Part shown: piece by piece, positions 1,300 through 34,800 of the stretch
Layout of the letters: each line of letters starts with the position of its first letter
How positions within the stretch are numbered: the first letter of the stretch is position 1
NCBI GenBank assembly: GCA_023091735.1
Contig: JALKBU010000073.1
Location: 29,783-93,782 of the forward strand
Length of the DNA: 64,000 nt
Origin: Trichomonas tenax
Taxonomy: Eukaryota > Parabasalia > Trichomonadida > Trichomonadidae
Reading direction: 5' to 3'
Notes under the pieces: generated by a model
Databases searched by the model: none
What the model was told of the DNA's origin: nothing
What the model saw: the letters and a program-made list of their open reading frames with translations, nothing else
Translations under genes and position numbers: made by a program

Positions 1300-3292
1300 T
1301 ATTCAAACATTTCAATGAATATAGGATCTCCATGACCTACAATATACAAAAATCGAACAAAAGTGAGATTAGTTGATTTTATGTCACTTTTGGAATTTTG
1401 ATTTTGATTGGCAAAGTCATTATATATTGGATATCTGATAATTTGGAATTTATGCATCAAATATGTTTTTATTGGGGGTGTTTATATATGAATATGAATC
1501 AATAATATTAGGTCAAACAATCATAATGAAAAATTTCGGGTCTCAGCAGAATTTTGATTGATTCAGATTTAAAAGACACCGGTGGAACTAAATATACCTC
1601 AAAATCGAGGTACGCCGGATTTTTTCCTATCGTCGCGAAAAATCAGGATTTTATTACGATAGAGAACATTAAACACTCTTTTTTGGAAAATAATGATTAT
1701 CTGATCCTTGCAATGTGCGCAAATATCAGAAAGCCCCGAGCCCAAAAGCTGATATTCTTTACAAAGGTCTTTCACATATATATATAGAATTGTATTTTGT
1801 TGATATTTTGATAATGTGTTTAGTATATGTACTGCTTGTAGTTTCAATGATAATTCACGCTATATAATGTATTTTTTTCTAAAAATGAAATTGAACATTT
1901 TTATATAGCGAATATATATGTGTGTATGGCATTGTAAGATGTACTATTCAGTGATATAAACATGTTTCCAATGTGTTTTAAAAAAAGAAGTGAGTTCAAG
2001 CAATTAAGATTTACAAAATTCATCTCAATTTAGATAATATTGGTTTATCAATTGTGTATCTTGAATTTTGATATTATATAAAGTGATTTGTAGAAGTAAA
2101 CTCAATATATATGAATTTCTTGACGATTCAATATGTGATTTGGGAGATAAAACGTTGCTAATAATGTTTAAGTTCACATTTCAATATTCACATCTGTTGG
2201 ATGATAATACTATTAAAATATTTTATGCAAATAGTCATTGCAATGTCATGATGTGCTATGATTAAAAGTGACACGTCTTCAATGTTAAAACATCATCATA
2301 GAAAGCCCCATGATTGATATCCATCCATATTAACAATGTGTAATGTATTCTATTATATGTGCATAATCTATTCAATATACTTGCGTATTATTCTATCATC
2401 TATACGGATATATATATGCATTGCAAAATTTGTCGACAAATTGTGGGACTTTTTGAACAATGTAAAGTGAATACGTCAGAATGTCAAAAAAATAAAATTG
2501 GTTTATTAACATATTTATATGTAGACATTCAAATTTGACTTGATTCATCGAAGAAATAGACATTTTTATTAAGTTTCCAATATAGATCATTTCAAAATTA
2601 ACGCAATATATTAAGAAATACAGTATCTGATACATAAAAACATACTTTTATTGTTAAACTCCTATCAAATGCGTCAAAACGATATTTCAATATTATCAAG
2701 CTAATGAAAAAAGAATATGAACGACTGCATTTAAGTTCACTTTGTTATGTTGTGCATATATCAGAATAATATGAATTGGAATATAGATGTTTATGATAAA
2801 ATAGAGCAGATTTAGGCAATTATATCATTTGTCAGTGATTTGAAGATCCATAAATGAATGATTGTTTATTCAACTGCATAGCAATCAAAAAATGCTGTAA
2901 AATCGCTATGAAAACTTAGAATATATAAAGAATACTTATATCTTTGAAAATAGCATTCTTCTTATCTCCCTCACATATTACATCAATTTTATATAGGTAT
3001 TAGGCAAAATTCATGCTTTTCTCAATAATACGCGATCTTGTAATATAGATTAACGCAAGGATCAGTATATATTGTGCGTATCTAATGTATTTATACTTTA
3101 TACATAATTTTCATGTTTGCTACGATCAGAAGTCGATAATTTTTATAAAAAAATAAAATATCATCAAAAACGAGTAATTTATAGCACAACCTCTCCAGAA
3201 TTGTGAATATATGGAGAATTTGTACCAGAAATTGATCGTTTTTGATGATATTTAATAACGGATAATTAGAGATAGTAGATAGCTTCATTTAT
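1300..3292. other. gene-free AT-rich DNA
   Basis: No convincing coding sequence. Short overlapping open frames on both strands at 1554-1847 look unlike any family I know and have no initiator. The rest is low-complexity A/T sequence. Confidence 0.5.
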
Positions 3293-3712
3293 CTAATAGA
3301 ATGGCAAACTGATGTTCATGGATTATCTGTTTGTCATGCTATTAGACCGCTAAAGCAGTAAATGGAGAACGATAAGTGAAAGATTTCGATTTGTCGCATT
3401 TTCTACGATTCTACAAAGTTGCCGCTTCATCTGGTGTCTCAGAAACTTCAGATAGTCGTAGAAAATGTAGGTTTGTAAATGGAAGCCGAATAATTTAACT
3501 CTGATCGAGCCTCAATAGCATCAACAGTCAACAACCATCTGGAGCGAAGTGCAGCTTCGAATTTCTGGCTTGCTGACCGTTGAGGCTTTGTGGGTGATTG
3601 CATTGCAAGAAAATTGAAGAATTTGTACATCCTTGAACGACAAAACACTCGCGTGGCATTGATTAGAGGGATATCTCCATTGATAACTCTAAAAATCATT
3701 GAAAAACGAGTG
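3293..3712. repeat. multi-hairpin element, copy 1
   Basis: At least three imperfect inverted repeats follow each other: 3293-3345 (arms starting CTAATAG and ending CTATTAG), 3397-3467 (CATTTTCTACG against CGTAGAAAATG) and 3648-3712 (CACTCG... against ...CGAGTG, with an inner GATTAGAG/CTCTAAAAATC pairing). Between the second and third is a weaker self-complementary block (3505-3590). The order, the arm sequences and the linker resemble those at 5406-5823, so the two stretches look like diverged copies of one element. No coding potential and no target duplication could be defined. Confidence 0.6.
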
Positions 3713-5267
3713 TCGAAAGAATGAACATTAAAAATTAACGTGTATTTTTCACAGAAATGTTTTAATCCCTCTTAAGCTATTCCATTCAGATCCATATTTA
3801 AATTCGGATCTAATGACTGATTTAAAATCGTAAAATTATTCGTAAATTCTTGAATTTTTGCAATACTTTATAATTATGATAAAAATGTGAATAAAACTGA
3901 TTAAGCATTTTTTAGATACAAGCAAATTTGGAAAGTGGAAATGATAGCATTAAACTTGCTTAGTGTAGTAAGTTCAATTGTATAATTTATTTGAAAACTA
4001 CTCAGTTGTACGTTATAATTGGTTATCGTTTTTTACGGCCAGGAACAGCCTTGACAGTTATTTTACATCGATATTGAATTGAAAATGATCGTTCAGGCTG
4101 TTACTGTCCGAAGCTAAAGCAGGGGGATGCCGACGATTATTTTTAAACGTAAGCTCATTGTAACTTGTTACGCCATCATTTTCTGCGGTAGTTCACCTAA
4201 CATAAAATGATGTGCAGTAACTTTGCAGTCAGCTTACATACACTGCATGCAACAGTTTCACACATTACATTCCACGAATAAGATATCTTCGAAAAAAAAA
4301 TTGGATTGAGCACAAAACTCAATTCAAACCATAGCATTCGCATCATCAAATACCAAATGCACAAGTAAATACGAAACAATGTTCTAATAATTATATTTCG
4401 AAATTTAGGTAACATGCATTTACACAGTATGAATACAATGATATTCATTGCTGGCTTGTATTTAGCCAGGATGAGACATTTGTTCGATGTCATACTCGAT
4501 ATTTAATATCAAAAATTGATAAACGTACACTCATTTTGGCCATAAAGTTCAATTCTCTATCTAACGCGGCACACGCATGTATGCTATCAAGAGAAATTAT
4601 ACTATTCTGCATCTATTTCTCGTATTTAATAAGTTGCGATATCTGAAGTTTGTCTATAAGCAATTTAAATCATTTTCTGCGCGTTCCATGGTTTAGCCTT
4701 ACATTCCTTTTGTATCTTTTGTATGAATAAAGCATAATTTTCCTTAATTTGTTTTTTCAAGTATTTTCAATATTCACAAATACTGTTGTGAATGCAACCA
4801 ATATATATATATGATCATAGTTGTCGTTTTCTAGCATGCATAGTTCATAAAACTGTAGATAAATATAAATGAAAAAATAAAACCTAATATATTCTTATTT
4901 TATTGGCATGTATATGTTATAATATGATTATATATACTATATCTCAGGTAGTTCCTATTATATAAATGTGTATACTACTGAATGCAACATTATCAAAATA
5001 AATACTAATTCTACTGGTTAAATATTTTACAGAGCTCAGTTTATCCTTAGCCTGTAGGGTGTTCTCAATGAAAACAATGTAATGCACAAAACATGTTATA
5101 ATATGAATATTTCCTGTGTAAAAGATATAATATATTTGCACTTTGATCATGAAATATAGCTGCACACTATATTTCATTTAGTAGAGTAGCTGCTTGATAA
5201 TTCGAGACTCTGGATGTAAATGTCACAGCTATCGATTTCAAAAGCCGAGATTTGATTCATAGAACGC
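3713..5267. other. gene-free AT-rich DNA with an isolated hairpin
   Basis: No supported gene. A 78-nt imperfect hairpin lies at about 4035-4112 (GGCCAGGAACAGCC against GGCTGTTACTGTCC). The open frame at 4197-4493 on the minus strand has no recognisable family and low-complexity composition. Confidence 0.45.
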
Positions 5268-5823
5268 AAATCTCGACAGAAATGAACCGTTTCGAGAACA
5301 AGCCCTCTAGGAAGTTGTTGTCCTAGAAGACTTGTGCTCGAAACTGTTCATTTCTGTCGAGATTTACGGATCAGAGTATTAGATGTCGTAAATAACTCTT
5401 GCTGCCTAATAGAACGACAAGCAGGTACCAATCGGCTATCTTCCTGTCATGTTATTAGACAACAAAAGTGCGTAATTCTGATCGATGAACGAAATGTTTG
5501 TATCGGTCGTATTTTCTACTACTCTCTTAGGTTCGTATGGCATGAAATGTCATAGAAGATACAGAGAGTAATAGAAAATGTAAGTTTAAATTATAACATC
5601 GAATTAGCTAGTATGAGCGAATTTCGAAGACATCAAAGGCCAACATATGACTAGATAAGAAGCTTTTCTTCTTATTTAGCCATTTGTGGGCCTTTGATGT
5701 CTTGATTGTGACGAAATTTGAAGAGAATGGATGAATTCGTGTGCGTTCTCCACTAGTTTTTCATTGGTTGAAGGGATGTCTGTACTGATAGACCCTCAAA
5801 ATCAATGAAAAATTGGTGGAGAA
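5268..5823. repeat. multi-hairpin element, copy 2 (five consecutive hairpins)
   Basis: Five inverted repeats follow in series. 5268-5365: AAATCTCGACAGAAATGAAC against GTTCATTTCTGTCGAGATTT, with further pairing inward to a loop near 5318. 5406-5458: CTAATAGAACGACA against TGTCATGTTATTAG. 5511-5579: ATTTTCTACTACTCTCT against AGAGAGTAATAGAAAAT. 5617-5719: GACATCAAAGGCC against GGCCTTTGATGTC, with an inner GATAAGAAG/CTTCTTATT. 5746-5823: TTCTCCACTAGTTTTTCATTG against CAATGAAAAATTGGTGGAGAA. Loops are short to moderate and the arms are imperfect. The second, third and fifth hairpins align with those of 3293-3712. Confidence 0.7.
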
Positions 5824-6125
5824 AAAACAATAATTATAATAATGTACAAAATATTAAAAATCTCAAAATAACATCTATTATCGATTAGTGTTCTGTATTT
5901 ATCAATTTACTATCAATAACTTCTTATTTCAAATGTCTTTTAGAGTAATTTTTTTAAAAATAGTTTGAGCAATTAAGAGAAATTCACAAATTCAATTATT
6001 TATGGATATTGGCGATATTTAAAATCAATAATTAAGCATTAATTTAAATATAGCAGCTATTTTGATGATTTGGTCTGATTTTTAAAGTTTTGTAAGTTAT
6101 AAAAATTTCAAATGCGTTCTCTACG

Positions 6126-6184
6126 AGTTCTTCACTGATTTTGAGGGATATCAATGAAGATTTCCCTCTAGCCAGTGAAGAACT
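6126..6184. repeat. single hairpin related to the last hairpin of the array
   Basis: AGTTCTTCACTG at 6126-6137 pairs perfectly with CAGTGAAGAACT at 6173-6184. The preceding GCGTTCTC and inner TTTGAGGG/CCCTC blocks echo the hairpin at 5746-5823. Confidence 0.55.
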
Positions 6185-6253
6185 ATTTGTTTCTCGTTAT
6201 AAAATTAATTAATTCTTCGAGATTCTCAAATTTAGCGTGCAAAGAATCATCAT

Positions 6254-8643: not shown

Positions 8644-10689
8644 ATGTTTTCTTTATTAGTTTCTTTCGCAGCTGGAGTTATAAACGGAGCGACATCTGGA
8701 ACTCTGACTGTGACAAATACCTATTTCGTTAACCAAACAGACAGATGCATAAATACGGACCAATCTGCGGCATTAACGATTTCAGAAGTTACGTTTTTCC
8801 AATGCACATATAACTACGCACCATGTATTAACTCCCTTGGATCCGGATATACTAATATTCAGAAAGTTTGTGCTTCATTTTGCTTCGCTTCGAACGGAAT
8901 TAGCTTTATGAGGCAATTAAACAGCCAATTGTACATGGCATACAGTTCCTGCACACTCTGCGGTAACGGTGGCGGCTCAGCGGACCAAATTATACTTGAA
9001 TCTTCAAGTGGTTCAAATATGCAATATTTAAACTGCTCCAGCTGCAAACCGATGTACGCCGTTACGAACGCCATGTATACGTCACAGTCAGTTAAGTATT
9101 CCAATTTCATCAACAACACACACACAACACAAGCATTATTCGTTAAGGGAGGAAATACAGAGTGCAACTATAATATCTTCCATAAGAACAAAGGTATCGG
9201 CTTATTTATTGAAGGATTTGGAAGTTTCTACGTTAGAAATTGCTATTTCACAATTAACGAAGCAAACGACATTTTCGCGAAATCCTCTACGGTATACTTA
9301 GAAGGATGCAACTTCTGGGACATGAAAACGGCAGTAGAATCAGCTTCTATCATACTTAACGGAAATGAAAATTATATTTACGGCTCAGGATACCCAGTTG
9401 ACAATTTTGGATCAAATCCAAACTGGGGTAACATCAATAACAGGTGTGCTTATGTTCCTTTCACAGCACCAACATGGCAAGGTTTACCAATCCCAACAAC
9501 ACCTCCAAAGTCTGCAAACCCAACGCCATATGACACACCTTCCACAACACCTTCCACAACACCAGTCATAACTCCATCTACAACACCGTCGACAACTCCG
9601 TCAACTACTCCAAGTACAACACCATCAACAACACCATGTGATACACCATCAGATACTCCTTCAACAACACCATCGACGACTCCATATGACACTCCATCTA
9701 CCACTCCAAGTACTACGCCGTCTACTACACCCAGCACTACTCCTAGTACCACTCCATTGATTACTCCTTTCGATACTCCATCAACAACCCCATCGACTAC
9801 ACCAAGTACAACACCGTCAACGACTCCAGTAGACACTCCATCCACAACTCCTTCTACTACTCCATCTACAACACCTTTTCAGACACCAGTAGACACACCC
9901 TCTACAACACCATCCACAACGCCGTCCACAACCCCTTCAACAACGCCATCGACGACGCCATCCACAACACCGTCGACAACGCCTTCTACAACACCAGTTG
10001 ATACACCAATGACAACACCATCAACTACTCCATACATAACACCATCAGAGACACCTTCCACAACACCAGAAACTACGCCATTTGAATCTCCAGTTAACAC
10101 CCCACAAACAACTCTTGCAACAACACCTCTCGATACACCAAAGACTACGCCAGCAACAACACCGGCTGTTACACCAGTTGAGACACCGGTCACAACATTG
10201 CACGCGACAATGACTCCAGGAACAACACCACATTTCACACCATATCAGACTCCTTCTGATACATTGAATGCAAAGCTTCTTGGATGGGAAGATCCAAAGA
10301 ATGACATTTCTCCATTATCATGGGTCGGAGTTGGCGCTTTAATCATTGCTATTTTCGCTATTGTTGCAACGGTTTTCATTTGCTTGAGGAGAAGACCAAA
10401 AATTGTCGTCCACAATATCGAAGGTGAAGATGACAATGACTCAACAATTTATGAGTACGAAGAAGAGGAAGAGGAAACACACGAAGTCAATGAAGAGAAT
10501 GAAGAATTTGTTTTATTCAGTGATAGAGAAGAGTTCGAACAAGAACCAAATGAAGTTTATGTTGGCCAATATAGCCACGAAAAAACTCCCGACATCGTCT
10601 TTTCAGATGATGACCAAATCAACTTAGCTAACTTCTCTGCTCGTTGCCAAGAGCTAAAGAAGAGCAGCATTAGTAACTTTATAATTTAA
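8644..10689 (+). CDS. surface protein: beta-helix ectodomain, Thr/Pro mucin-like stalk, TM helix, acidic tail
   Basis: The 681-residue protein starts with a short hydrophobic stretch that may be a signal peptide (MFSLLVSFAAG). Residues about 20-285 are a Cys-, Asn- and Tyr-rich repeat region of short beta strands (FYVRNCYF, VYLEGCNFW), as in right-handed beta-helix/Pmp-like surface proteins of trichomonads. About 294-538 is a stalk of S-T-T-P tetrapeptides interrupted by D/V/Y/F-containing units, a likely O-glycosylation scaffold. Residues about 559-582 form a single TM helix (ALIIAIFAIVATVFICL) with an RRR stop-transfer. The last ~100 residues are strongly acidic (EYEEEEEETHE). The stop overlaps TAAATAAA, fitting the trichomonad poly(A) signal. 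The layout suggests a plasma-membrane adhesin or coat protein. Domain order is seen; the adhesion role is inferred. Confidence 0.88.
   Translation: MFSLLVSFAAGVINGATSGTLTVTNTYFVNQTDRCINTDQSAALTISEVTFFQCTYNYAPCINSLGSGYTNIQKVCASFCFASNGISFMRQLNSQLYMAYSSCTLCGNGGGSADQIILESSSGSNMQYLNCSSCKPMYAVTNAMYTSQSVKYSNFINNTHTTQALFVKGGNTECNYNIFHKNKGIGLFIEGFGSFYVRNCYFTINEANDIFAKSSTVYLEGCNFWDMKTAVESASIILNGNENYIYGSGYPVDNFGSNPNWGNINNRCAYVPFTAPTWQGLPIPTTPPKSANPTPYDTPSTTPSTTPVITPSTTPSTTPSTTPSTTPSTTPCDTPSDTPSTTPSTTPYDTPSTTPSTTPSTTPSTTPSTTPLITPFDTPSTTPSTTPSTTPSTTPVDTPSTTPSTTPSTTPFQTPVDTPSTTPSTTPSTTPSTTPSTTPSTTPSTTPSTTPVDTPMTTPSTTPYITPSETPSTTPETTPFESPVNTPQTTLATTPLDTPKTTPATTPAVTPVETPVTTLHATMTPGTTPHFTPYQTPSDTLNAKLLGWEDPKNDISPLSWVGVGALIIAIFAIVATVFICLRRRPKIVVHNIEGEDDNDSTIYEYEEEEEETHEVNEENEEFVLFSDREEFEQEPNEVYVGQYSHEKTPDIVFSDDDQINLANFSARCQELKKSSISNFII
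9523..10260 (+). repeat. coding tandem repeat encoding S-T-T-P units
   Basis: About 60 tetrapeptide units in 740 bp, mostly STTP with variants such as YDTP, VDTP, FQTP and ETTP. Codons for Ser, Thr and Pro vary freely between units, so the DNA is less regular than the protein. Antisense frames opened by this periodicity (Gly-Val-Val-Asp type) are artefacts. Confidence 0.85.
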
Positions 10690-15931: not shown

Positions 15932-16978
15932 TTATATACTGAATGTAGTATTTAATATCAAAATTAACGTATTCAATCTAAGATTTGTTCGACAAACACT
16001 ACAAACAATAAAATCGGAAGCTAATGTGATTTTGACAAATCCATTCCCATATTGTGTGGATGTGTTACCTTTCAGCAAAATAGTATCAAAGAAAACATAT
16101 CCGGAATAGTGATTTGGTTGTCCTGTGTGGATGATATTATTCGATTGAGATTGTTTTGAAATTGCATCACATTGAGGATGTCCTGATATGAATGAAGAAG
16201 CGGAACTTCCAACACTAACTCTACAATCTATAGAAGAGCCACCTCCACCACCATAATATCCTCCGCCGGATGCTGATCCCCAACAATCTATTTCAGAACT
16301 TGGAGAACCTCCAATTCCAAATTTTCCATTTTCACCATTCTTTAGTGAACTGTCACTTGAAGTCGAACCAATTCCTGGCTGAGTCTGTTTTGCACCAATA
16401 GAATTTGTAAGAGTTCCAGTTGGTGTGCATGTTGGATTATCCCCATATGTTCCATTATCGCCTATGATTGCGCCTCCATGTGGACCTTGAATGAATCCCA
16501 TATGGTATTGAGATCCAGTCCCACCTGCAGCAACCATTATTCGCGACATAAGAGATGCAAAATTATCCCATTCACCAGAAATAGTTCTCATATCTGTTGC
16601 TCCACCACCGGAGCCCGCATAATTTCTTTGGCAATTGCTACCGTGGCCTCCTCCATTAAAAGTTCGAGGCCCATTTGCATCACCTTTCTCGCCTAAATAA
16701 AAGAAGAATGTTTCAGAATGAGCAATGCCAATTGCACCGCTTGAGTAGGCGCCACGGCCGCCGTTGTTTGAACCTATTACAATTCCGCCGCCTGATGCAC
16801 CAATCATCTCAATGCGATATATTTCCGGCTTAAAAATAACTTTGTAAGGACTACATTGAGAGCCTAAAGTGCAAGGATAATCTAATGTAACGCTCCTTCC
16901 ATCACTACTCCACATGATACTTGTATTACCACGAGATGGATATAGTAAATCGATTGATACAAATTTCTTAATATTCAT
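15932..16978 (-). CDS. glycine-rich protein resembling the ALK/LTK glycine-rich domain
   Basis: 348 residues from the ATG at 16976-16978. DYPCTLGSQCSPYKV (residues about 33-47) is the usual opening of this trichomonad family. Then come EMIGASGGG (about 57-65) and glycine clusters GGRGAYSSGAIG, YLGEKGD, GGGHGSN, AGSGGGATDMR, VAAGGTG and GGGYYGGGGGSSIDCR, ending in GNGFVKIT. This is the order of motifs in the glycine-rich domain of ALK/LTK-type receptors. I see no clear signal peptide or TM helix, and the last 30 residues are moderately hydrophobic, so localisation is unclear; the conserved Cys residues suggest an extracellular fold. The gene converges on the LRR gene with only 36 bp between stops, and its own stop overlaps TAAA. 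A broken relative lies at 26.9-27.7 kb. Function unknown. Confidence 0.8.
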   Translation of the reverse strand: MNIKKFVSIDLLYPSRGNTSIMWSSDGRSVTLDYPCTLGSQCSPYKVIFKPEIYRIEMIGASGGGIVIGSNNGGRGAYSSGAIGIAHSETFFFYLGEKGDANGPRTFNGGGHGSNCQRNYAGSGGGATDMRTISGEWDNFASLMSRIMVAAGGTGSQYHMGFIQGPHGGAIIGDNGTYGDNPTCTPTGTLTNSIGAKQTQPGIGSTSSDSSLKNGENGKFGIGGSPSSEIDCWGSASGGGYYGGGGGSSIDCRVSVGSSASSFISGHPQCDAISKQSQSNNIIHTGQPNHYSGYVFFDTILLKGNTSTQYGNGFVKITLASDFIVCSVCRTNLRLNTLILILNTTFSI

Positions 16979-17130: not shown

Positions 17131-17720
17131 GTCACGAAAAAGTGACATTATCTGACATGTAAACACAAATATTTGACAAATAAATATTTACGTGGCGTGT
17201 GATTATAAATGATTATTGGAAGAATGATATCCTATATTTGTTTAAATTTACTTTGAAAAGAAAAATTAAGTGCTTGATTGGCACTGGTATCCAAAATGCT
17301 AGCAATCCAGTCCACAGTTCTTCCTTTCAGAAGCATTCTGTAAAGTAAATCGCTGATTATTTCGAAAATCGAGTCTGAAAGGAAGAACTGTGGACCGGAT
17401 TGCTAGTACCTTGGCTACAAGTCCCAATCAAGCATTTAATTTTGCTCTTCAGAGGCATTCTGAAGTGGAAATCTTTGATTTCTTAATGATGGCGTATGAA
17501 AGGAAGATCGGTGAGTTTAGCTACTAACATGCGTGGTTCCTGTGTCAATGCAGTCCCCAGTTCTTCCCGTCAGACGCGATTTTGAAATAAAAACTAATAC
17601 ATAATTTGAACGATTATAGGACTTTACATGTCAAAATATTAATATTTTGACAAATAAACGGGAGATCACAATAACTTTACATGTCAGATAAAATTACTTT
17701 TTATGTCACTTTTTCATTGT
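17131..17720. mobile_element. inverted-repeat-bounded non-coding element containing a long hairpin
   Basis: Left flank (17138-17185) reads GAAAAAGTGACATTATCTGACATGTAAA. On the opposite strand at 17660-17720 the same blocks recur in the same order (GAAAAAGTGACAT, then TATCTGACATGTAAA) with a short insertion between them; TTTGACAAATAAA blocks follow inside both flanks. The interior has no open frame but contains the 182-nt hairpin at 17262-17443 and a degenerate further copy of its pieces up to about 17580. This fits a non-autonomous foldback/MITE-like element. Relatives of the flank (TGTCATGTAA) are seen near 55.1-55.25 kb. Boundaries are approximate and no target duplication was identified. 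Confidence 0.55.
17262..17443. repeat. 182-nt long imperfect hairpin
   Basis: Left arm 17262-17332 and right arm 17373-17443 are about 71 nt each and pair along almost their whole length with scattered mismatches. Outer ends are AAAATTAAGTGCTTGATTGG against CCAATCAAGCATTTAATTTT; inner parts are CCACAGTTCTTCCTTTCAGA against TCTGAAAGGAAGAACTGTGG. The loop is about 40 nt. CAGTCCCCAGTTCTTCCCGTCAGA-like sequence near 17549-17573 is a diverged direct copy of the inner arm. Confidence 0.8.
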
Positions 17721-17956
17721 AACTTTCAGTACGTGAGAATTGGAAATGTGTCTAAATTAAGCTTCATTTCAAAATGTTCAAAGCAATTTTTCGCGAGGTA
17801 GGCAACTAATTCCAACATTTGCCTGTGATTCACCGAAATTGTTTGTGTAAAATGGGTCATTCTAAATGATTTTTTTTGAAAGATCTCAGTGTTTTTTCCA
17901 TCAGTTTTTATTTAGGCCATTAAATTTTGTTGTCAATAGTCATATGACTAAACTTC

Positions 17957-18046
17957 TTTTTTTAATCTAGGTACTCCTCTCAATTTTTTCAAGGGGTCCC
18001 CTCAATATTGTGAGGAACACGCCCGTAGAGTGCCTAGATTAAAAAA
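17957..18046. mobile_element. 90-bp MITE-like foldback
   Basis: TTTTTTAATCTAGGTACTC near 17957-17975 is inverted as GAGTGCCTAGATTAAAAAA at 18028-18046 with one mismatch. The inside (GGGGTCCCCTC) also folds. No coding capacity. It lies just upstream of the lipase pseudogene. Confidence 0.6.
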
Positions 18047-18139
18047 TGTAGTTTATGAATATTATTCAGCGAATTGTTTTGCCTTTAATGTGTCAATTTT
18101 TTATAACCGCTGTCAGATCTAATTATACAAAGTACTGTA

Positions 18140-19352: not shown

Positions 19353-22300
19353 TTACTTATCATAATTAAATTCGGATATATTAAAAGAAAGCTTTTCGTT
19401 GATCTTCAAAATTGCAGATTTGAAATATCTGTAAACTTTCGAACCAACAACATTAGAAATTATTGAGCCAGTTTTGCTGACTTCGATAATATCAACACTT
19501 TCGAGTGGAGACTGCTGGATTGATTCTATTTCTTGTCCTGTAATCCTGTAAACCTTAACTGCAAACTGATATGTTGAAGGAACGCCAATAGCGACGCATT
19601 CGATGCAAGAAACCAAAACGCATTTTCGTGCCGAGATGATTTTTTCTGTTTGAATCTCAGAGATAACTGTGCCAATGGAATCATAAACGACAATCTTCGA
19701 TTCTCCGACGCATGCAACACATCCACTCTTGTAGACAAACAATCCATTTGTAACATCAACAGATCTGATCGATGTTATAAAGTCTCCTTCAATAGTTGCA
19801 AAAATAAGAGTGTTATCAACATCAACACTGCAAATAAGTCCGGAATCAACTGACATTGAGAGTTTCTTGATCTCGCAGGTATGATATGTCATTGTCTTAA
19901 TAAATGCACATTCTGGTAATGACCAAATATGGACATCGCCAATATCGCCACCAGTCAATAAGATCCTGTTTCCAGCGATCGAAGCTGCTGTAACATATGA
20001 AGTTCTGTGTTGAACATATGTTAATCTGTTCTCTACGAAGTTCTGAACAACAACGAATGGCTCTGGATAATGCGCATCCTTTTCTGACAGATACACTGCG
20101 ATATTTAATGGTTGGGAAACGCCGACAATCTTCCTTGAAACCAAAAATCCGCTATATATGCGTTTCTTGTAAAATCCTTGTCCATTTAATGTTATTCCGA
20201 ATTGCTTCTTGAAATAAATGATCTGGAAGATGCCACTATTCATATTATTGCGTTCTGTTGAATCAAGAATTTTCTCTCTTGACTTGTGGCTGCTGTTGAA
20301 AAGCCTTGGAATCGGGCACCAAACTGTTTCAAAAGCATGCAAAGAATCATCATTATCATGCAAAAATTCTCCGTACATTTCTTTGTTGCCTCTTGCTGTG
20401 CCGTACATCATGTCAAACCATTTGTGGATCGACTTGCTTGAATTGAGCTCTAAGAATAGCTTGTGTATCTCAACAAAGTTAACAGCATTACAATACTTGT
20501 TTGAAGGATCGATGTAAGCCCAATCAGGAAGTTTAACGTCTGCATTCTCGCTAGGATCATAGTGTTTCCATAATGGCTTTTGATATCTATTTAACAAGAA
20601 TTGATAAAATGAGAAATATTCTGGTAGGCATTCGGTCTTATTTTGAGTACTATTATGAACATGCTGGAAAATTCTTTCCTTTACTTCAAAATCTCTTTGG
20701 AATGCAAGATATGATTCATAAAATGGAGTCAATCTTATGAATGTAACAAGAACTTGGTAAATACTCATATATCCATAATTATCAATCGTTCCGTGATCAA
20801 GGAAATTTTTAACTCTGTTTTGATCTATGTTTGCATAACCAAGATTTCTTGGTCGCAATTTATTGAAATCATCAAATATCCATGGGAAGAACGGATAAGC
20901 TGAAAAGTTGTTGTATGATCTGCCACACAACATATTGAGATAAGTTAAATACTCAAATGTTGATATTTCTCCATTGGTCCATTTGTCCATAATCTTTAGA
21001 TCATCAACGAGTTTTGTAATATCATTGAGATATTTTCCTTGAAGAATAACTGTTTCTTTGTTTTCATATTCACGCGAATTAAGATTTCTGAGACTTCGGA
21101 ATAAATCAAATTTGTTATTTATGACAGGAATTCGATCGTGTGATTGATGAGACCAGATTTCATTGATATACCAAACAAATGAATCACGCTGCTCCTTGCT
21201 TGGATGAATAATAAATAAGGAAGGCTTGAAAGCACTGTAAATTTCGCAGGCTAAATCTTGATTGAAATATTTAACATTCATAATGAATTCAATCTCATCA
21301 ATACGAAGATCTTCATAAAAATGACAATTTGTATTAGAAACGCCTTCAAACGTAATTGTGAATTTATCGAAGTTAATATTTTGGTCACCAAAGAATGGAT
21401 CGGCGAAGATTCCTTTAATTGTGCATACGTATGCACCCTGTTTTGGAATTGGAGGATTTGTCTCAACTGAAGCAATAAATTTTGAATAATCCACTTCATT
21501 GATGGATCTTCCACCTTTGCGATTTGTTAATGATGAAACTGAAAATGTTGGCTTGATATTGAAATCATGCATGCATGAACCATTGGTCTTCATGATTAAC
21601 TCAACATCATTGATTTGGCTTCGATGGAATTCTTGACCTCTTGAAGACTTTGAAGCAGTATATTCATTATGGTATTTATCGTAGGCATTATAAAATTGTT
21701 GTTGTAGATATGATTCAGCTATTGGTTTATCACTTCCTAATGAATGATCAATCGTTAAATTCGGCTTTGCCTTATTAATCTCTTGCGATAATTCATTGAT
21801 GTATTTTTCTTCATTCATCAATGTATTAAATACAGCAAATGGTTCGAAGTTTGGATTGTAATATCTCGATAATTTTGTAGGTAATTCTAAATCGATAATT
21901 CTTGTGAAATTAGAAATGCACTGCAATTGAATGCCTCTTGTACAAAACTGCATTTTCTCAACAATTATATCACGATATACAGCAACTTCTTCAATTCTAG
22001 TTGAGATTTGTGAAAATTCATAAAGGAGATCAATACACAAATAGATCATTTCGAAAGATTGATTGAAAATCATGACCTGTTTGCCATCATATAAATCGAT
22101 ACTATCAAGAAGCAATTTGATCAAAGATTCATCTCTTGTGGAATACTTTTTAATTGTAACCTGAATGTCGAAATTTTGGACCTCAAGGAAGGGATTGGTT
22201 AAAAACTTCTTAATCGGTTTGCCAGAAAGCTGAGTATTGCGCATTATCAATGGAATAGCAACGGATAATAATTTATCAAGATGTCCCTTTATCGATTCTT

Positions 22301-25300
22301 TTGGAATGTTCTTGAGTATCTCAACTTCAAAATTATACCAATCAAGTGATAACTCTTTGTTATTTTCAGCAATGCTGAATAGCTCAATGCACCTAAAGAC
22401 TTTGATAATTGAATCAATCTTGTACTTCAAAATCTCAATGAAAGGCTTTGTTGTATAATATCTCGAAACTTTCATGAAATTGAGTAAGAAGTAATACCAA
22501 TTATCACATTTGCTGAAGTTCTCGAGAATTAAATCATCCTTGAGATATTGGCAAATCCAATCAATTGCAGTTCTTGGATCCTCTCTATTCATGAATGTCT
22601 TTAATAGAAGAGGAATTGTAAGAGGAGACCTAATCAATCTGTCTTTGTAGGCATCATCAATAAACTTTCCATCTGGAGCATATGACATGATTAATGCAGT
22701 TGTGATACAGATTTGTGACAACTCTCTCTGATACTTGTATTCATTAAATTTAGCGAAAAGATCAATAAAGTTCTTTAAGCAAATGTTTTGCACATCAGTA
22801 TCCTCGAAAGTAATTAAGAACATCCATGGCAAAAAGCATAATTGGATGTTGTCCGTGAATTTCGTGTACAGGCTAAATTCTAATTGGAAATTATCTGTGA
22901 ATGCATGTGTGTTCATTAATATTGGTTGAATTTCTTGCAATTTGATATTACTGTACCACATTGGATATGTAATAATGAATGATTTGTCGACATCAAAACT
23001 TGGATCAACGATCAATAATGTTGCAAAATCTATTGCTTTTTCTAACTTTTTCTCTAAAGCTCCAGCAAAATATGTTATCACTGCCTCTCTGTTGAAGAAC
23101 AGACGCTTATTTTTGTTATAAGCAACTATAACATAATTCTCAAAGAAATTTGGGAAATCTTTGGCAATCATTTCATATGTGAAATCAATGTTCAAGAAGA
23201 AAGCAATTGCAAATTTATCGGCAACTTTTGTATCCAATAAAGCAAGAGCAGCATCCAAAAAGTCTTCATTGACGAACTCTAATTTGAGTGTTGTCAAATA
23301 CGATGCATAATAATTGATGTAGTCTTTTCTGTTGAAATCAATGCAAAGGTCTTCAAGATTGTCTAAAAGTAATTTGAAGATCTTCAATAAAATTACTGCG
23401 ATGTTTTCCTTGTCTTTTAATAGAAATGCATCATCTCTTTGACAATATTCTTGAACCATTGGTACCAAAGTGAATAAATTATTTGCGCTCCTGAGAATGT
23501 CGATGATCGAATTTTGGGCAGCAGAAACGGTTCCATTAAACTCAGCTGTAGCTCCGTTATCAAGAGGATCAGTGTGGATGATCTTTTCTCCATACACGAA
23601 AAGCGGAGAATAGTTCTTAACAATGGCTTCATTTTTTGTGATTTTGATCTCTGAGATAAAGCCATCTAAAGATGCATCAAGGAAGTTTGTGGCGAATCCA
23701 ATTTTTTGCTGTGATTTTCCAACTTTAAAATCAAAAACTGCCATGTAACCATCAATAGTCAAGCTGAAATTATCATTTGCGAAATCAATTGATACATCAA
23801 GCCATTTGCCAATGCACATTGGAGAAATAAGAAATGTTTCTTTATCGCTTGGTGGTATGAACTGTGCTTCGAATTCAGTTGAGTTGATCTTGACTATTGC
23901 TTTGATATCATATGTTTTCGGAGATTTCTGGAGCTTAATGCTAAGAGATTGAGAATCAGATATCTGTAAGTAGAAAAATGGATCCATGAACTTTTCGTTA
24001 ACTTGATTGAACTTGATGCTGAATTTAATCGATGTATCTGGCGCGATTATTGGTTTATTAACATCATTGCTTTCATCAATGATTCCTGTTCTGAATTTAG
24101 ACATTGCAAAAGACCATCTATCTGATTCCATTAACTGGCATGCAATCATGTTTTTGAACATTTCGAAAATTCTATGTGTAAACCTATATTGAGCTTTTTC
24201 GAGAGTTTTGAACAGATTATGGAACATTGCTGTAGTAAATTGTGCTGTACAAAGCCGTTCCATGAAAGATAATGTTTCTTCAAGAAGAGGGTCAGAACCA
24301 TCTTTGCATGACAGAAAATTATCAAGAGCAAATTTGAAGCCGCCATGAACGATCAACTTTTCCGCGTTTGCTTTGTTTTGAGCAAGCTTATTAAATTCTT
24401 TTGTGACAAGAAATTCTTTGTGTGTATCTTGAGCTCTTTGAGCAAGAAGCTGAATAACAGCTGGAACGTAAATAATTGGAGCTGTATTTTTTTCAAGCGA
24501 AACTTCAGCACAAAGGAACTTAAGTAAGGGCTCAACAAGATCGATTTGTTGACTACAGTTGATTAGTTCCTTGATATCATCTGAAGTAAGCTTCCTAACA
24601 TAGATGCAATACTGAGATCCATTCATTGCCCATTTCGTCAAAAGCTGAATGATTTCCAGCTCTATATTCTTCTTGCGAGCTTGTTCAATAGCAACCTTTA
24701 CAACGATTTCTTGATTGAATGTGACATTATAGCTATCCTGGATTATAGATATCATATTGTTTGTGATCTGCATATCTTCACACTGAAATCCTTTGATGAT
24801 TGTATCATTCATGATGTTGTTTAGAGCAAAAGACTTCTTGACTATATTTATGAATGTCGCTGGATTGTCCATCATTCTTTTTTCAACAAGTTGAACAATT
24901 GGATATTCATTAGATGGTGAATTAAGCGGAATTACGATTTCTGGATAAGAAAGTATAATATATCTAATGTAGTCGAATATGCAGTCGTTCGTTTTAGCTA
25001 ATTCTGCCATTTTCATCAAAAGAGTTCCTGAAGATCGAACAAATTCGATGATTTTACCATTGCTTGGATTTATGTAATCGAACAGAAGTGGAGATAAATG
25101 ATAGAAAACAATCTCGTCATCTAAGATTGAAGCGATCTTGTTTGGTATACCTGAACGAGGATCTAAATAGAAATTATTGATTAAATACAGCAAATAATCG
25201 TGTGCAGATGTGTTGTATGTATTGGAGAAAAAGTTTTTGTTAATCAATGAACTGATTCCATCATACAATATAAGATTTTCCGATTTTGATGGCCAAATCA

Positions 25301-26423
25301 AGTATGAAAACATCAAAATGGCCTTGTTCAAATGGAGCAATGAATTTTCTCTTGATATCAAGAATTCATCGAAATAGAGACGATAATTGATCAGCTTTGC
25401 GAATTGCCTGAAAACTATTACGAATTCACTAGTTAATTCATTAGCAAATGGTTTTGTGGGTTCCTTAATATTATTTGATACATGAGAATTGATATAATTT
25501 TCGAAGTTAGGATTTTCTAATTTATAAGTTGCAATTGGTATATTAAGTGTACCATCTAGTTGAATATCAGGTAAAAATTGGTCCCAAAGATGGAAAATTA
25601 ATGAGATAAGATCTGAATTTGGAAATCTGTAACCAATTTTGTTAAGTTTATCGAGTGCAAACAATATAACTTTCATTTTGGTTTCTGTAATCTCTGTGTT
25701 TTCAGTTAACTTAGCAAAATTAAATATAATTTCAGAAAAAACTTTATCTTCCTGTGTCTTTGGATAAGAATTTGAACTTAAAACGCTGTGTAACTGGACA
25801 AGGAAACTATCAGATAACACCTTTGCATCAGAATTCAAATATTTCAACATAAATTCTGTAGTAACAGAAAACATATCATTCTGATCTGTTTTTTGTGTAG
25901 GCTGGTCTAAAATTTTGTAGAATTCTTCAAGAATTGTCACGATAAATTCTTGGTATTTTGGAACTTCTTCCATTTTCTCCATAAGGAAGCGGATTATTGA
26001 AGCAAATGGCTTAAAGTATCTTGGCTGGCTTTGTGAACCTGTTTTTGGTAGAATTTTGTAAAAAGAGAAATATTTTGCAAAAATGTTGTCAATTCCAAAA
26101 ACTCGTACCTTGAGTTCATTATTTTTGAGTATTTCGTGTATATTTTGGTCAATTTTAATGATTTCACGATTTAAAATTGAAAATATTTCACTTTCATTGG
26201 TGTTGTTTCTGTAATTTGTTGGCAAATCGAAGACAAAGAGCTCATCCATGATATTTCCTTCCTGCAATTTGAACGCGTTTAGAATAATATCTTCATTACT
26301 CGATGACGGACGATCGAATTGCTTTTTTAGAAAGTCAGGGAGTTTGCTGAGGATCTCTTCATCCAATTTCTTGTACTTTTGTGTGTAACAAGAAATTGTA
26401 AAACTGAGATATTCGTCATCCAT
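19353..26423 (-). CDS. giant BEACH-domain protein (ConA-like, PH-BEACH, BEACH, WD40), BEACH-1
   Basis: 2356 residues from the ATG at 26421-26423. The first ~790 residues are helical (armadillo-like). About 795-935 look like the ConA-like lectin fold found in large BEACH proteins (IKFSIKFNQVNEKF to LDGFISEIKI). More helical repeats follow, then a PH-BEACH domain (about 1645-1760) and the BEACH domain (about 1800-2020) with WTNGEISTFEYLTYLNMLCG, RSYNNFSAYPFFPWIF, LTPFYESYLAFQ and PLWKHYDPSENADVKLPDWAY. The C-terminal ~220 residues contain WD40-type repeats (VHIWSLPECAFIKTMTYHTC). Such proteins (LYST, neurobeachin, LRBA, LvsA families) act as scaffolds in lysosome/vacuole size control, membrane fusion and autophagy; which subtype this is cannot be decided. 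The stop overlaps TAAATA. The frame is intact for over 7 kb. Confidence 0.93.
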   Translation of the reverse strand: MDDEYLSFTISCYTQKYKKLDEEILSKLPDFLKKQFDRPSSSNEDIILNAFKLQEGNIMDELFVFDLPTNYRNNTNESEIFSILNREIIKIDQNIHEILKNNELKVRVFGIDNIFAKYFSFYKILPKTGSQSQPRYFKPFASIIRFLMEKMEEVPKYQEFIVTILEEFYKILDQPTQKTDQNDMFSVTTEFMLKYLNSDAKVLSDSFLVQLHSVLSSNSYPKTQEDKVFSEIIFNFAKLTENTEITETKMKVILFALDKLNKIGYRFPNSDLISLIFHLWDQFLPDIQLDGTLNIPIATYKLENPNFENYINSHVSNNIKEPTKPFANELTSEFVIVFRQFAKLINYRLYFDEFLISRENSLLHLNKAILMFSYLIWPSKSENLILYDGISSLINKNFFSNTYNTSAHDYLLYLINNFYLDPRSGIPNKIASILDDEIVFYHLSPLLFDYINPSNGKIIEFVRSSGTLLMKMAELAKTNDCIFDYIRYIILSYPEIVIPLNSPSNEYPIVQLVEKRMMDNPATFINIVKKSFALNNIMNDTIIKGFQCEDMQITNNMISIIQDSYNVTFNQEIVVKVAIEQARKKNIELEIIQLLTKWAMNGSQYCIYVRKLTSDDIKELINCSQQIDLVEPLLKFLCAEVSLEKNTAPIIYVPAVIQLLAQRAQDTHKEFLVTKEFNKLAQNKANAEKLIVHGGFKFALDNFLSCKDGSDPLLEETLSFMERLCTAQFTTAMFHNLFKTLEKAQYRFTHRIFEMFKNMIACQLMESDRWSFAMSKFRTGIIDESNDVNKPIIAPDTSIKFSIKFNQVNEKFMDPFFYLQISDSQSLSIKLQKSPKTYDIKAIVKINSTEFEAQFIPPSDKETFLISPMCIGKWLDVSIDFANDNFSLTIDGYMAVFDFKVGKSQQKIGFATNFLDASLDGFISEIKITKNEAIVKNYSPLFVYGEKIIHTDPLDNGATAEFNGTVSAAQNSIIDILRSANNLFTLVPMVQEYCQRDDAFLLKDKENIAVILLKIFKLLLDNLEDLCIDFNRKDYINYYASYLTTLKLEFVNEDFLDAALALLDTKVADKFAIAFFLNIDFTYEMIAKDFPNFFENYVIVAYNKNKRLFFNREAVITYFAGALEKKLEKAIDFATLLIVDPSFDVDKSFIITYPMWYSNIKLQEIQPILMNTHAFTDNFQLEFSLYTKFTDNIQLCFLPWMFLITFEDTDVQNICLKNFIDLFAKFNEYKYQRELSQICITTALIMSYAPDGKFIDDAYKDRLIRSPLTIPLLLKTFMNREDPRTAIDWICQYLKDDLILENFSKCDNWYYFLLNFMKVSRYYTTKPFIEILKYKIDSIIKVFRCIELFSIAENNKELSLDWYNFEVEILKNIPKESIKGHLDKLLSVAIPLIMRNTQLSGKPIKKFLTNPFLEVQNFDIQVTIKKYSTRDESLIKLLLDSIDLYDGKQVMIFNQSFEMIYLCIDLLYEFSQISTRIEEVAVYRDIIVEKMQFCTRGIQLQCISNFTRIIDLELPTKLSRYYNPNFEPFAVFNTLMNEEKYINELSQEINKAKPNLTIDHSLGSDKPIAESYLQQQFYNAYDKYHNEYTASKSSRGQEFHRSQINDVELIMKTNGSCMHDFNIKPTFSVSSLTNRKGGRSINEVDYSKFIASVETNPPIPKQGAYVCTIKGIFADPFFGDQNINFDKFTITFEGVSNTNCHFYEDLRIDEIEFIMNVKYFNQDLACEIYSAFKPSLFIIHPSKEQRDSFVWYINEIWSHQSHDRIPVINNKFDLFRSLRNLNSREYENKETVILQGKYLNDITKLVDDLKIMDKWTNGEISTFEYLTYLNMLCGRSYNNFSAYPFFPWIFDDFNKLRPRNLGYANIDQNRVKNFLDHGTIDNYGYMSIYQVLVTFIRLTPFYESYLAFQRDFEVKERIFQHVHNSTQNKTECLPEYFSFYQFLLNRYQKPLWKHYDPSENADVKLPDWAYIDPSNKYCNAVNFVEIHKLFLELNSSKSIHKWFDMMYGTARGNKEMYGEFLHDNDDSLHAFETVWCPIPRLFNSSHKSREKILDSTERNNMNSGIFQIIYFKKQFGITLNGQGFYKKRIYSGFLVSRKIVGVSQPLNIAVYLSEKDAHYPEPFVVVQNFVENRLTYVQHRTSYVTAASIAGNRILLTGGDIGDVHIWSLPECAFIKTMTYHTCEIKKLSMSVDSGLICSVDVDNTLIFATIEGDFITSIRSVDVTNGLFVYKSGCVACVGESKIVVYDSIGTVISEIQTEKIISARKCVLVSCIECVAIGVPSTYQFAVKVYRITGQEIESIQQSPLESVDIIEVSKTGSIISNVVGSKVYRYFKSAILKINEKLSFNISEFNYDK

Positions 26424-26890: not shown

Positions 26891-27737
26891 TAAAGAGTGT
26901 ATAACCTCTCACACACTGAAGAGCTTGCGCCAATACATGTTGTACCTGGATATTATCGAATTTAGCTATGGGGAGCACAAGGAGGCAATCGAAATGTCTC
27001 AAACTCAATGAATGCGAATGGAACATATTCAGAGATAATTTATGAATCAACAAAAGAAGGATCACTATTTGCCTATGTTGAAAAAATGAGAAAATGTTCC
27101 AATGAATTTAATCTCACCACCCAAATGTATCGAAGGTGGTAGCAATAGCCTTGGTATCGAAAAGCCTATGTCATGCATTGTTGGAGAAGCAACTTTTGTT
27201 TTACAATCAAACAATACAGAAGATGTTCTCGTTGTTGCAAATGCAGGTGGTGGGTCAGGTTATTATTCATCAGGCTTGGTTCATAGAATGGGATTTGGTG
27301 CAACAAAGATATCTCCTGGTAAAGTAGGAGGTTATTTTGATGAAGAAAACCATAAATACCAATCATGTAATGCTTCAGATGGATCAAGATTTAAAGGAGG
27401 CAATGCATGTTCTACTGCATACGGATCATCGGGCGGGGTTGGATATGAGTATTTTGGTGGTGGCGGTGGAACGAATTCGATTGGTGGGTGTGATGGAAGT
27501 AGTTACGCAAAGCCTCCATATGCTTATAAACTCCTCAACCGAAACGAAGAATTTTTATCTCCTGAAGGTTTCGCGGAAGTTGAGCACCCAGGAGATGGAT
27601 ACATTCGAATTACTTACTCCATGACATCTGAAATGTTTGGTATCCTGTTCAAAAACAAATGCACTGTATGTTATCATGCTTCAAAAACTTACAAAAACAT
27701 CATTTTATTTTCCGTTTTCATATCGATAGGAAAATAG
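26890..27737 (+). pseudogene. broken glycine-rich (ALK-GRD-like) protein gene
   Basis: A frame opened near 26890 encodes HVVPGYYRI, then an in-frame TAG at 26963-26965 exactly where the family has E in the ELWGAQGG motif, then LWGAQGGNRNVSNS and EGSLFAYVEK. A frameshift near 27100 moves the rest into the frame of 27102-27737: VVANAGGGSGYYSSG, GRFKGG-like blocks, YFGGGGGTNSIGGCDGSSY, GDGYIRITYS, ending in a hydrophobic segment (NIILFSVFIS) that may be a TM remnant. With a nonsense codon and a frameshift the gene is dead, though 211 codons stay open. It is related to, but not a close copy of, the gene at 15932-16978. The family call is good; the original start was not found. Confidence 0.75.
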
Positions 27738-31800: not shown

Positions 31801-31813
31801 TTTGTTATCATCA

Positions 31814-34800
31814 ATGCTTTTTCATCGCTCAAATTCCGCTGGAGAACCTTTTTCTTTTGACAACGAGAAGTACATGAAACTTCAGAACATTGATGATAAA
31901 ATAAACATGTTATCTCAAGGTATAAACACATTTGTCACGAATTATAAGAAAAATCCACCGAATCCGAAAGTGAAAGACAAACATAACGACACGGGTGCGT
32001 TTTATAGTGTTTTTATTAATGATTATTCGCTTATTTTACATAATAATTTAAGTAATTTAATTGTTGCAATTCCATTTTTTCGACAAATTCTCAATGGATT
32101 ACCAAATTGCGAGAAATTGGCGGAATTGAGTCAAATAATCATCAATGATATTAAGACAAAAGGCGCCAATTACGAAAATTCTTTCAAAGCATTACAATCT
32201 CTTTGCACTGTTGAGTCATTTTGCATCAATTTCCTTTCTTCAGGAAGGTTTACCGAAATTTTTGTCGATTTTATCAAAGATTTGCACTTCGATGAGTTAT
32301 GTGGAATTTTACTCTCTTTTCAAACAGATCAATTCATTAACACGATGAAAACAATGAATGCCATTACAACTCTATTTCCAATTTTGAATTATGTCGTTGG
32401 AATACAAGAAGCCCAAAATATTATTCCTGAAGCAAACTTTATTCAAATAATTACTTTCGTTTTCAACATGTTCCAACTTTGCTACACAATAAACGATTTG
32501 CCAATGATAGATGTCGACAACTTCCTGTTTAGACAAAATAAATTACTTTTGAGTTATCCAATTTTCAAAATAACAAGGATATACGAATCTCTAAGCAAAC
32601 AGGATCCACATTACGTTATTCATCCGAGCATATTGCGAATATACGAAGATTTATATTTAAATTACGGTGAAGATTACGAAAAGAAGTCTGATTTAATAAA
32701 TTACATCGCAGGGATATCAACAGAATATTCAATCGAGTACGCAAATGAATTTAAGCTGATAAAATGGTTTGATCCAGAAATATGTCGAAGATATCCACTA
32801 TTGAGTGGATTTTCACAAATCATTCGATCAATAGCGCACGTTAAACCTGATGATATCACGCAAATATTGAAATTAATTTTCAAACAAATTACTTTACCGT
32901 TAAAACCAGAAATACTGTTCAATGATATTCTTGGATTGTTTAGCAGACTCATCACCGAAGATAAAATAACTCCGGCTCAATTTGGTGATGCATATTTCAT
33001 AAAACTCTTGATTTTAGACGCTGATCCAAAGGATCTTGCAGTAAAACTTCTTCAAAATCCGGAATTCCAAACAATGCTTAAGTTAGTATTCGATTCTAAA
33101 AGAATTGGAAGTTATACTTTTAAATTACTCGAACAAATCATCAAAACAGCTGAAATCAACAAAAAATACTCATTTACAGACTATGTAATCCAACTACTGC
33201 ATGAAAACTATAATGATACAATATTGACGTATTTTATTGAAAATTTAGATTATCAATGCGTTCCAGACATATTTTACCAAGTGCTATCATTTGATCACAT
33301 TCTAGACACCATAAGAATGTTCCATGCAGCAGATTGTTTCTCGATTGTAACGAGAAAACTAAGTTTAGGAAATAAATGGGTCATTCCATTCTTAACATTC
33401 ATAAATACCATCGTTATGCATGAGAATGACCATTTCTTCGATGAATGGGTTATCATTCAACCAATTTCTTCTCCAATCTTCAAATTAGAAAAAGAATCAA
33501 TTCAAGAGTTTGTTTTACCACTAATTCCAAACGATCCAATACCAATACCAAGTTTAGCACCACTGTGCGATGAATTTCTAACAACATCAAATTATAATCT
33601 TTATCTTTTAGGCGCTTATGCACTTCCAATCTATACAAAGCTCGGATTCCAAATAGACAAGGTTTTGAACATCAAAATGATCACAAACAGATTCGTTCGA
33701 TTAACAGACTTCGAAACAATTCTCGAAAAAAATGTTCGTTGTGTCAGCGAATGTTTGATGCAGCCTGTTGACAATTTCCCGATTTTCGAGTTCTTCCCAG
33801 GCCACGGCGCAGGATGGCTCGAGACATCTGATCAAATTATTTATTCCATGGTGACATTAAATATCAGATTCGATCAACCATCGCATGAATTATATAGTTT
33901 CCTTAATTTTAACAATTTAAGTGTTGGAATACAAGGAAACCAACTTGTTGCCCCTGATGGCAAAATATTGGTGGAAATAGAAATCAGCAAATGGCACAAC
34001 ATAATTTTATTATTCACAAGATCACCAAACATTATCTCTTTTTATTTAGATCAGCAACAAATTTTCTCTGTTCCTTCACAAGAAAAAGGTGTTTTATTGC
34101 AAACAATCGGTAACAAACTTTATCCAACAATGGCGATGTCTGTTGTTAACAATGTCAATGGCTTAACAAAGCCAATGACCGAAAATGAAGCATTACAATA
34201 TAAATTACCAGAAACATCAAACATCAATTTGAAGCCAATGAAATCTGTTGGCCTGGCTCTATACAATGCTGTTTCAACACTGTATTCATCGGATCAAAAC
34301 ATAATGAGGCTTTTCGAGAAACTCGGCAACTTCAATGAAGAAATGAAAGATGATTACATCAGAGTTATTGCTATGATTCCTGACATTTGTTCGATTGACT
34401 ATGCATTGTTCTTCAAGCATTTCATCACTATGCTAAAAGAACAATCACTATATTGCACATCGGGATGGACAAAAGAGTTCGCTTTGTCAATATTGTGGGT
34501 GAAAGATACAAATCTAAGAAGCGACATTTTCATGTCAGTCTTCAATGATTTCGAGTTTTGGTCATCAATGCCATCAATTGCTTTAATCGAGTTCATAGAA
34601 ACAGTTCAGAACTTCACTGCTCAACACAAAGATATTCTTAACTTCGAGAAGTTGATAAATTCCAATATTTTCAGGCAATTAATTTATTTGATTTATGCAG
34701 TTCAATCGGATCAGTTGTGGAAAACTTTGATAACATTTTATGTTTTCCTTCTCCAGTTCTCCAATAACTTAGCGAACAAACAAACAGCACAAATCGTGAG

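Follow-up and report, generated by a model that had tools for sequence, protein, structure and literature searches.

A dispersed noncoding repeat of Trichomonas tenax built on a chain of five hairpins, with arms that are probably recopied at the DNA level

Results

The window analysed here, a stretch of 64,000 nucleotides of a Trichomonas tenax contig, contains two noncoding arrays of hairpins, which we refer to as array A and array B (Table 1). Both consist of five hairpins, H1 to H5, in the same order. The window also contains very long open reading frames (ORFs), one of 2356 codons on the minus strand (19353-26423) and one of 2251 codons on the plus strand (31802-38557), as well as an ORF of 681 codons (8644-10689) that has no Pfam match and contains tandem repeats based on a 12-nt unit at 9535-10068. 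An ALK/LTK glycine-rich domain is found in two ORFs, at 15932-16978 on the minus strand and at 27102-27737 on the plus strand. A protein kinase encoded in the window shows 65% identity to a Trichomonas vaginalis kinase and 39% to a Tritrichomonas foetus kinase, in keeping with a trichomonad origin; its best match, at 84%, is an unnamed protein.

Table 1 Features of the hairpin arrays in the window
Feature	Position	Strand	Evidence and details
Array B, diverged sister, same five hairpins in the same order	3126..3732	+	nhmmer match, alignment; fold z -5.2
Left flank of array A	4036..5142	+	About 90% in common with L017, L023, L025 and L030; further hairpins at 4028-4115 and 4119-4247
Array A, noncoding, with hairpins H1 to H5 in order	5228..5849	+	nhmmer profile match, 51-copy alignment, fold z -15
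H1	5265..5368	+	Arms 5265-5312/5321-5368, 48 nt, 90% complementary, 8-nt loop; z -14.9/-16.7 (two strands)
H2, imperfect stem	5395..5469 (about)	+	From fold, A1 columns 187-264, limits by eye; z -2.7/-5.9
H3	5510..5580 (about)	+	From fold, A1 columns 305-375, limits by eye; z -5.5/-6.9
H4, orientation reversed relative to most other subfamilies	5627..5703	+	Arms 5627-5662/5668-5703, 36 nt, 89%; z -9.5/-11.2
H5	5734..5835	+	Arms 5734-5769/5800-5835, 36 nt, 78%; z -9.3/-6.2
Inverted partner, truncated to the H5 end of a second array that converges on array A	6113..6234	-	nhmmer minus-strand match, 42.7 bits; inverted repeat 5793-5823/6117-6147, 84%

The initial annotation of this DNA had described five inverted repeats at 5268..5823 with almost no spacer between them. 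The repeat listing and the computed fold together bear out the five hairpins at the positions given (note that H2 and H3 were missed by the inverted-repeat listing and are visible in the fold). The spacers, however, are about 20-45 nt long, and the conserved unit reaches beyond the coordinates first given for the array, to about 5142-5863. Folding on both strands, which the initial annotation had left to be computed, proved to be far from weak: the plus strand of 5240-5850 (611 nt) folds at -235.3 kcal/mol, compared to -135.7 ± 6.6 kcal/mol for 20 shuffles (z -15, reached by 0/20), and the minus strand gives a z of -16.7 (0/20). Moreover, none of 100 dinucleotide shuffles matched the folding of any one of the five hairpins of array A on either strand (z from -2.7 to -16.7). 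Since the array as a whole and each of its hairpins outdo the shuffles on both strands, chance folding can be rejected. A small putative hairpin upstream of array A (5114-5229) was not significant when compared to dinucleotide shuffles. At the sensitivity of the inverted- and direct-repeat search, no direct-repeat family links H1 to H5, and there is no tandem array at the site.

A scan of the 64-kb window for long hairpins found six, three of which lie within arrays A and B, and none in either of two Markov-shuffled windows. The strongest single hairpin of the window, with 78-nt arms and about -74 kcal/mol in a 150-nt segment, is at 17254-17451, where there is no array. Isolated long hairpins are also present at 17949-18055 and 47677-47758, and the two shuffled windows had none.

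Searches of the organism's own genome (53.4 Mb in 1528 contigs) established that the arrays are dispersed and present in many copies. With the 611-nt sequence of array A as the query, we found at least 41 array-like stretches at 70-100% identity, at no fewer than 40 places including the window (a lower bound, as 40 of 79 candidate places were scored). Array B has at least about 40 places of its own, likewise a lower bound, 40 of 212 candidate places having been scored. Further copies, which the initial annotation had suggested looking for, are thus present at about 40 scored places for each array. In the retrieved loci (denoted L followed by a number) and the window there are 74 profile hits above 150 bits; of these, the 51 with coverage of 88% or more of the model went into the alignment. 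The 51 copies split into nine subfamilies of at least three members, one pair and two singletons. (Pattern scans of IMG/VR gave no match to the array and are uninformative with respect to other trichomonads.)

The order and spacing of H1 to H5 are maintained throughout the 51 aligned copies. The mean distances between successive hairpin axes, from H1 through H5, are 112, 114, 120 and 124 nt, and the standard deviation of the H2-H3 distance is 0.34 nt. In array B, H4 is weak on the plus strand, where 6 of 100 dinucleotide shuffles match it. Note that the arrays of the G3 subfamily (L017, L018, L023, L025 and L030) appear mosaic when compared by eye, with H1 and H2 like those of array A and an H4 nearer to that of the other branch (G11); hairpins therefore seem to have been exchanged between subfamilies.

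The array family is a noncoding dispersed repeat. There is no stop-free frame of 110 codons or more across an array in the 13 loci checked, and a protein-coding origin was rejected on the basis that the longest stop-free stretch among the 51 copies is 94 codons (median 70). At gathering cut-offs no Rfam family matches in the window, and a snoRNA or other Rfam RNA was rejected for that reason.

Several loci reveal a larger anatomy. Convergent inverted pairs of arrays, about 110-375 nt apart, are present in L009, L011, L012, L013, L041 and the L014 group. In the window, the partner of array A is reduced to its first hairpin (Table 1). The L013 locus matches the window at 5395-6226; beyond this match come inverted pieces of array, which jointly account for most of the model, and at its far side the L013 element ends in an inverted copy of the sequence at window positions 4036-4326. 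The two inverted array arms at L041:2444-3728 are 99.5% identical, indicating that inverted pairs keep arising. (The left of these arms begins inside H1, as if it came from a fold-back event at the hairpin.) Beside the arrays of L012, at 5335-5606 of that locus, are two more extreme hairpins, of -66.8 and -71.6 kcal/mol.

The members of the L014 group have about 4.2 kb in common at about 89-94%, and elements of this type have imperfect inverted repeats at their termini. On either side of L014 is the target duplication TAGGATATT, exact over 9 bp, and L033 has one that matches at 8 of 9 positions (both read by eye from the end sequences); a clear target duplication was found only in these two copies of one subfamily. 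In L027 the ends are placed differently and show a 7-bp repeat, and no clear target duplication was found at L015, L024, L029 or L042. Arrays also occur in other terminal-repeat contexts, such as those of L023 (342 bp at 99%), L025, L017 and L041, and terminal repeats of these types had no clear target duplication. No one pair of ends common to the whole family was found, given this variety of terminal-repeat contexts, so that single MITE ends were rejected, and the window copy itself lacks a complete pair of ends and has no terminal repeat with target duplication. A genome search with the terminal repeats gave 17 matches. The 9-bp duplication is compatible with the Mutator-like (MULE) superfamily, MULE domains occur at 11 places in the genome, and none of the four MULE loci examined (about 3.3 kb each) contains an array. 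Together, the terminal inverted repeats of the L014-type elements and the exact 9-bp duplication in one copy argue that some members of the family were probably mobilised as non-autonomous DNA transposons. The family as a whole has the many copies and the noncoding character of MITE-like elements, with terminal repeats plus duplication in L014-type members only; its convergent pairs provide the long inverted arms of foldback elements, whereas arms made of short tandem direct repeats were not found for H1 to H5. The suggestion, made in the initial annotation, of a composite foldback element thus comes close to what was found: a dispersed repeat with inverted pairs, terminal inverted repeats and, in one copy, an exact 9-bp duplication.

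The two arms of each hairpin evolve together. In the 51-copy alignment 87.3% of the pairs are standard, compared to 81.2% when shuffled and 37-43% with slid partners. Changes on both sides of a pair were counted in 568 cells, a number that none of 500 shuffles reached (219 ± 18). The number of further pair types (164) is no higher than the shuffled mean (164.4), so that the covariation rests on few ancestral changes common to many copies. Between the consensuses of subfamilies W and B, to which arrays A and B belong, we counted 25 double Watson-Crick changes where about 5.7 were expected. Double Watson-Crick changes exceeded the independent expectation in all 36 pairs of the nine subfamily consensuses, by 2- to 14-fold (note that these pairs are not independent and that the smallest case is 1 versus 0.5).

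In resting copies, mutations in stems (0.028 per site) are about as frequent as at unpaired sites (0.031 per site), and thus no maintenance of pairing is visible there. An excess of mismatch repairs was counted in these copies and may reflect wrong polarity. Mismatches cluster weakly along the stems (38 versus 27.9 ± 4.4, p 0.014), and stems and spacers diverge about equally between subfamilies. Fixed indels are fewer than private ones, at 0.015 versus 0.029 per substitution, which lends weak support to constraint, the difference being based on 21 private events and non-independent pairs.

If a plus-strand RNA were selected, G.T mispairs should outnumber A.C mispairs, and selection on a minus-strand RNA should give the reverse. 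Mispairs in the arrays are close to symmetric: with pairs predicted from both strands, there are 340 G.T and 380 A.C among 6926 cells, and 54 G.T and 66 A.C among 1302 cells in the nine consensuses (binomial p 0.3). The G.T to A.C ratios for H1 to H5 are 74:87, 53:67, 124:110, 45:48 and 39:64; H5 alone leans, toward A.C (p 0.018, uncorrected, with five hairpins tested). The lack of an overall strand bias argues against a single transcribed RNA strand. Transcription from both strands into double-stranded RNA would also be expected to give symmetric mispairs.

Hairpins have been flipped or had an arm rewritten. When each copy was compared to the consensus of its sisters, the differences in 5 of 226 hairpins were explained by one reverse-complement copy about the hairpin's own axis (threshold gain of at least 4; all five reach at least 9), compared to 0.05 in simulation; 9 of 235 hairpin tests were skipped on account of indels. 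In the control, in which the axis was centred on spacers, 0 of 183 windows were flipped and none reached a gain of 3. The flip removes all 13 differences in H2 of L033, 11 of 13 in H1 of L030 (where the entire 5' arm has been rewritten from the 3' arm), 10 of 16 in H1 of L016, all nine in H3 of L012 (where the stem is now perfect over 34 bp) and 9 of 10 in H2 of L020. Comparisons of orientation within subfamilies likewise found 25 of 555 hairpin pairs inverted, compared to 0 of 448 spacer pairs. H1 of L016 is reversed relative to all eight of its sisters; G1 favours the L016 orientation as the older one, and W, G3 and G4 slightly favour that of the sisters.

One flip is shared by a whole clade. 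H4 is flipped, with the same loop, in the window copy (W) and in L009, L010, L011 and L012. That these five copies lie on five contigs argues against an assembly error at this hairpin (flips seen in single copies could be such errors). When H4 of W was compared to 11 other groups, the reverse complement scored higher with eight and equally with two, and the forward orientation was favoured only with G4; the score differences were 2 to 8, with at most 3 for spacers. Some further consensus pairs also score higher with the reverse complement, namely H1 of S12 with W, G3 and G1, and H4 of G6 with S12. (A count of flips between subfamilies was dropped because spacers scored too, at 116 of 4652, and was replaced by comparisons of consensuses, for which a separate spacer control was run.) Clustered differences are thus accounted for, beyond chance, by a single copy centred on the hairpin axis. 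These flips are most probably the product of template switching or arm conversion at the level of DNA.

Simulation indicates that template switching at the observed rate is too rare to maintain the pairing of the stems. At 0.67 events per hairpin per substitution per site (5/226 divided by the private divergence, and a lower bound because small corrections leave no trace), simulated stems retained 62-70% pairing with 2.1% double changes, compared to about 85% and 17% observed. Raising the rate to 12 in the same units still gave only 73-77% pairing and 8-9% double changes. With no repair at all, pairing was 61-70%, so passive decay is insufficient to account for the stems. Given that switching is too slow and that stems in resting copies mutate like unpaired sites, pairing must be kept in the source lineages: either the DNA structure is under selection in active elements, or arms are recopied in connection with transposition.

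Discussion

In our judgement, the array is probably a foldback-like DNA repeat, at least in part a non-autonomous DNA transposon, that has a chain of five hairpins as its core and whose arms are recopied at the DNA level. That judgement covers the DNA-level reading overall and leaves the shares of selection and recopying undivided. While the DNA is single-stranded or supercoiled in the course of replication or transposition, the hairpins would extrude, and one arm would then be copied from the other by template switching or by conversion between the arms. Such recopying would be rare in resting copies, and more frequent in active source elements, or joined there with selection. Somewhat speculatively, the repeat may even be a mobile element that renews itself, with every move passing through a hairpin stage at which one arm is recopied, such that the chain of palindromes would stay self-matching, even as sequences diverge widely, in the absence of any RNA function.

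Selection may instead act on the DNA structure, with cruciforms or single-strand hairpins being read by a transposase or a replication factor, compensatory changes being selected in active elements and flips being a by-product. This is possible, and the symmetric mispairs, the order and near-constant spacing of H1 to H5, the deficit of fixed indels and the slowness of template switching by itself would all fit it. The indel difference, however, comes from few and non-independent observations, the constant spacing is largely explained by low indel rates, and selection of this kind sits uneasily with the roughly equal divergence of stems and spacers between subfamilies. Far less probable is that an old palindromic segment is carried passively by unrelated transposons, its pairing merely ancestral. 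The several different terminal-repeat contexts, the neutral decay of resting copies and the small number of distinct pair types are what a passenger would show, but the double Watson-Crick excess in every (non-independent) subfamily pair and the low pairing reached in the simulation without repair are not, and covariation already disfavours this explanation.

We also considered the possibility that the arrays are hairpin-RNA loci (hpRNA or a pre-miRNA cluster), in which the chain would be transcribed, cut by a Dicer-like enzyme and loaded onto Argonaute so as to silence transposons or genes, with selection acting on the RNA. The very strong folding on both strands, the strong covariation and the pairing of source lineages beyond what the observed flips explain are consistent with such loci. 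Furthermore, the genome has an Argonaute domain (PF02171) at one place, in an 838-codon frame, and a pair of neighbouring RNase III domains, both of them in a frame of 832 codons and hence apparently in one ORF. The presence of Piwi and RNase III domains, which is what the evidence for Dicer and Argonaute consists of, makes a role for double-stranded RNA possible. We nevertheless regard hairpin-RNA loci as unlikely, given that G.U pairs are not in excess over A.C, that strand-specific pairing was not found, and that the arrays tolerate changes in the orientation of hairpins; because hairpins flip between copies, any strand-specific product would be swapped. In addition, genome searches with H1 and H4 reached array places and no recognised target gene, and gene targets of these two hairpins were rejected at the sensitivity of that search (29 and 37 candidate places, respectively, in a search blind to matches of 20-35 nt; the statement excludes one H1 place, on C773, and four H4 places, on C557, C928, C1172 and C587). 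The chain of pre-miRNA-like or snoRNA-host-like stem-loops envisaged in the initial annotation therefore finds no support in the Rfam search, the mispairs or the flips between copies.

Loci with tandem hairpins that give rise to hpRNAs in Drosophila are transcribed on a single strand and have target genes to which they match. The trichomonad arrays resemble them in having long hairpins placed head to tail, and differ in that they carry no one-strand pairing signature and that H1 and H4 have no recognised target gene.

Template-switch mutations in hairpins have been described in genes for rRNA and microRNA, among them 69 inversions of loops that are typically 4 nt long; a compensatory change accompanied by a loop inversion is regarded there as the strongest support possible, and six such cases were found (Monttinen and Loytynoja 2022, PMC8794818). 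As far as the excerpted text of that study goes, the events in the arrays are of the same kind, in that loops are inverted or one arm is rewritten by a single reverse-complement copy centred on the axis, and one event yields compensatory changes. Unlike the cases in that excerpt, those reported here are in a noncoding repeat with long stems, with five events within subfamilies and one clade-shared flip in 51 copies, and the observed rate falls short of explaining the pairing.

The nearest type of element that we found, judging by the excerpted description, is the Mutator/Foldback element Tm1 of root-knot nematodes (PMC3169594), which likewise has noncoding members, 9-bp target duplications and structurally complex inverted termini. 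The Tm1 termini described in that excerpt are mostly tandem repeats of 13-15 bp, whereas the arms here are chains of five distinct hairpins for which no transposase is known. TvMULE elements of Trichomonas vaginalis (PMC2725143, also in excerpt) are Mutator-like elements in a trichomonad, comparable in this respect to the MULE domains in the present genome. In the excerpt, TvMULEs encode a transposase, are without long terminal repeats and have duplications of 10-14 bp in the table rows given; no array was found in the four MULE loci examined here. Among the titles and beginnings of abstracts listed from the open-licence literature, we found neither hairpin chains of this kind in trichomonads nor loop flips in a transposon.

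An RNA stem is usually judged functional from its compensatory changes. In the arrays, which are noncoding, such changes coincide with mispairs that are symmetric and with flips that are visible, and may arise from DNA events. Were the repeat indeed an element that renews its own hairpins, its covariation would naturally be mistaken for evidence of RNA structure. The family provides a natural system, with many copies, for telling selection on structure apart from recopying at the DNA level, and it adds an unusual repeat, made of a chain of hairpins, to the known mobile DNA of trichomonads.
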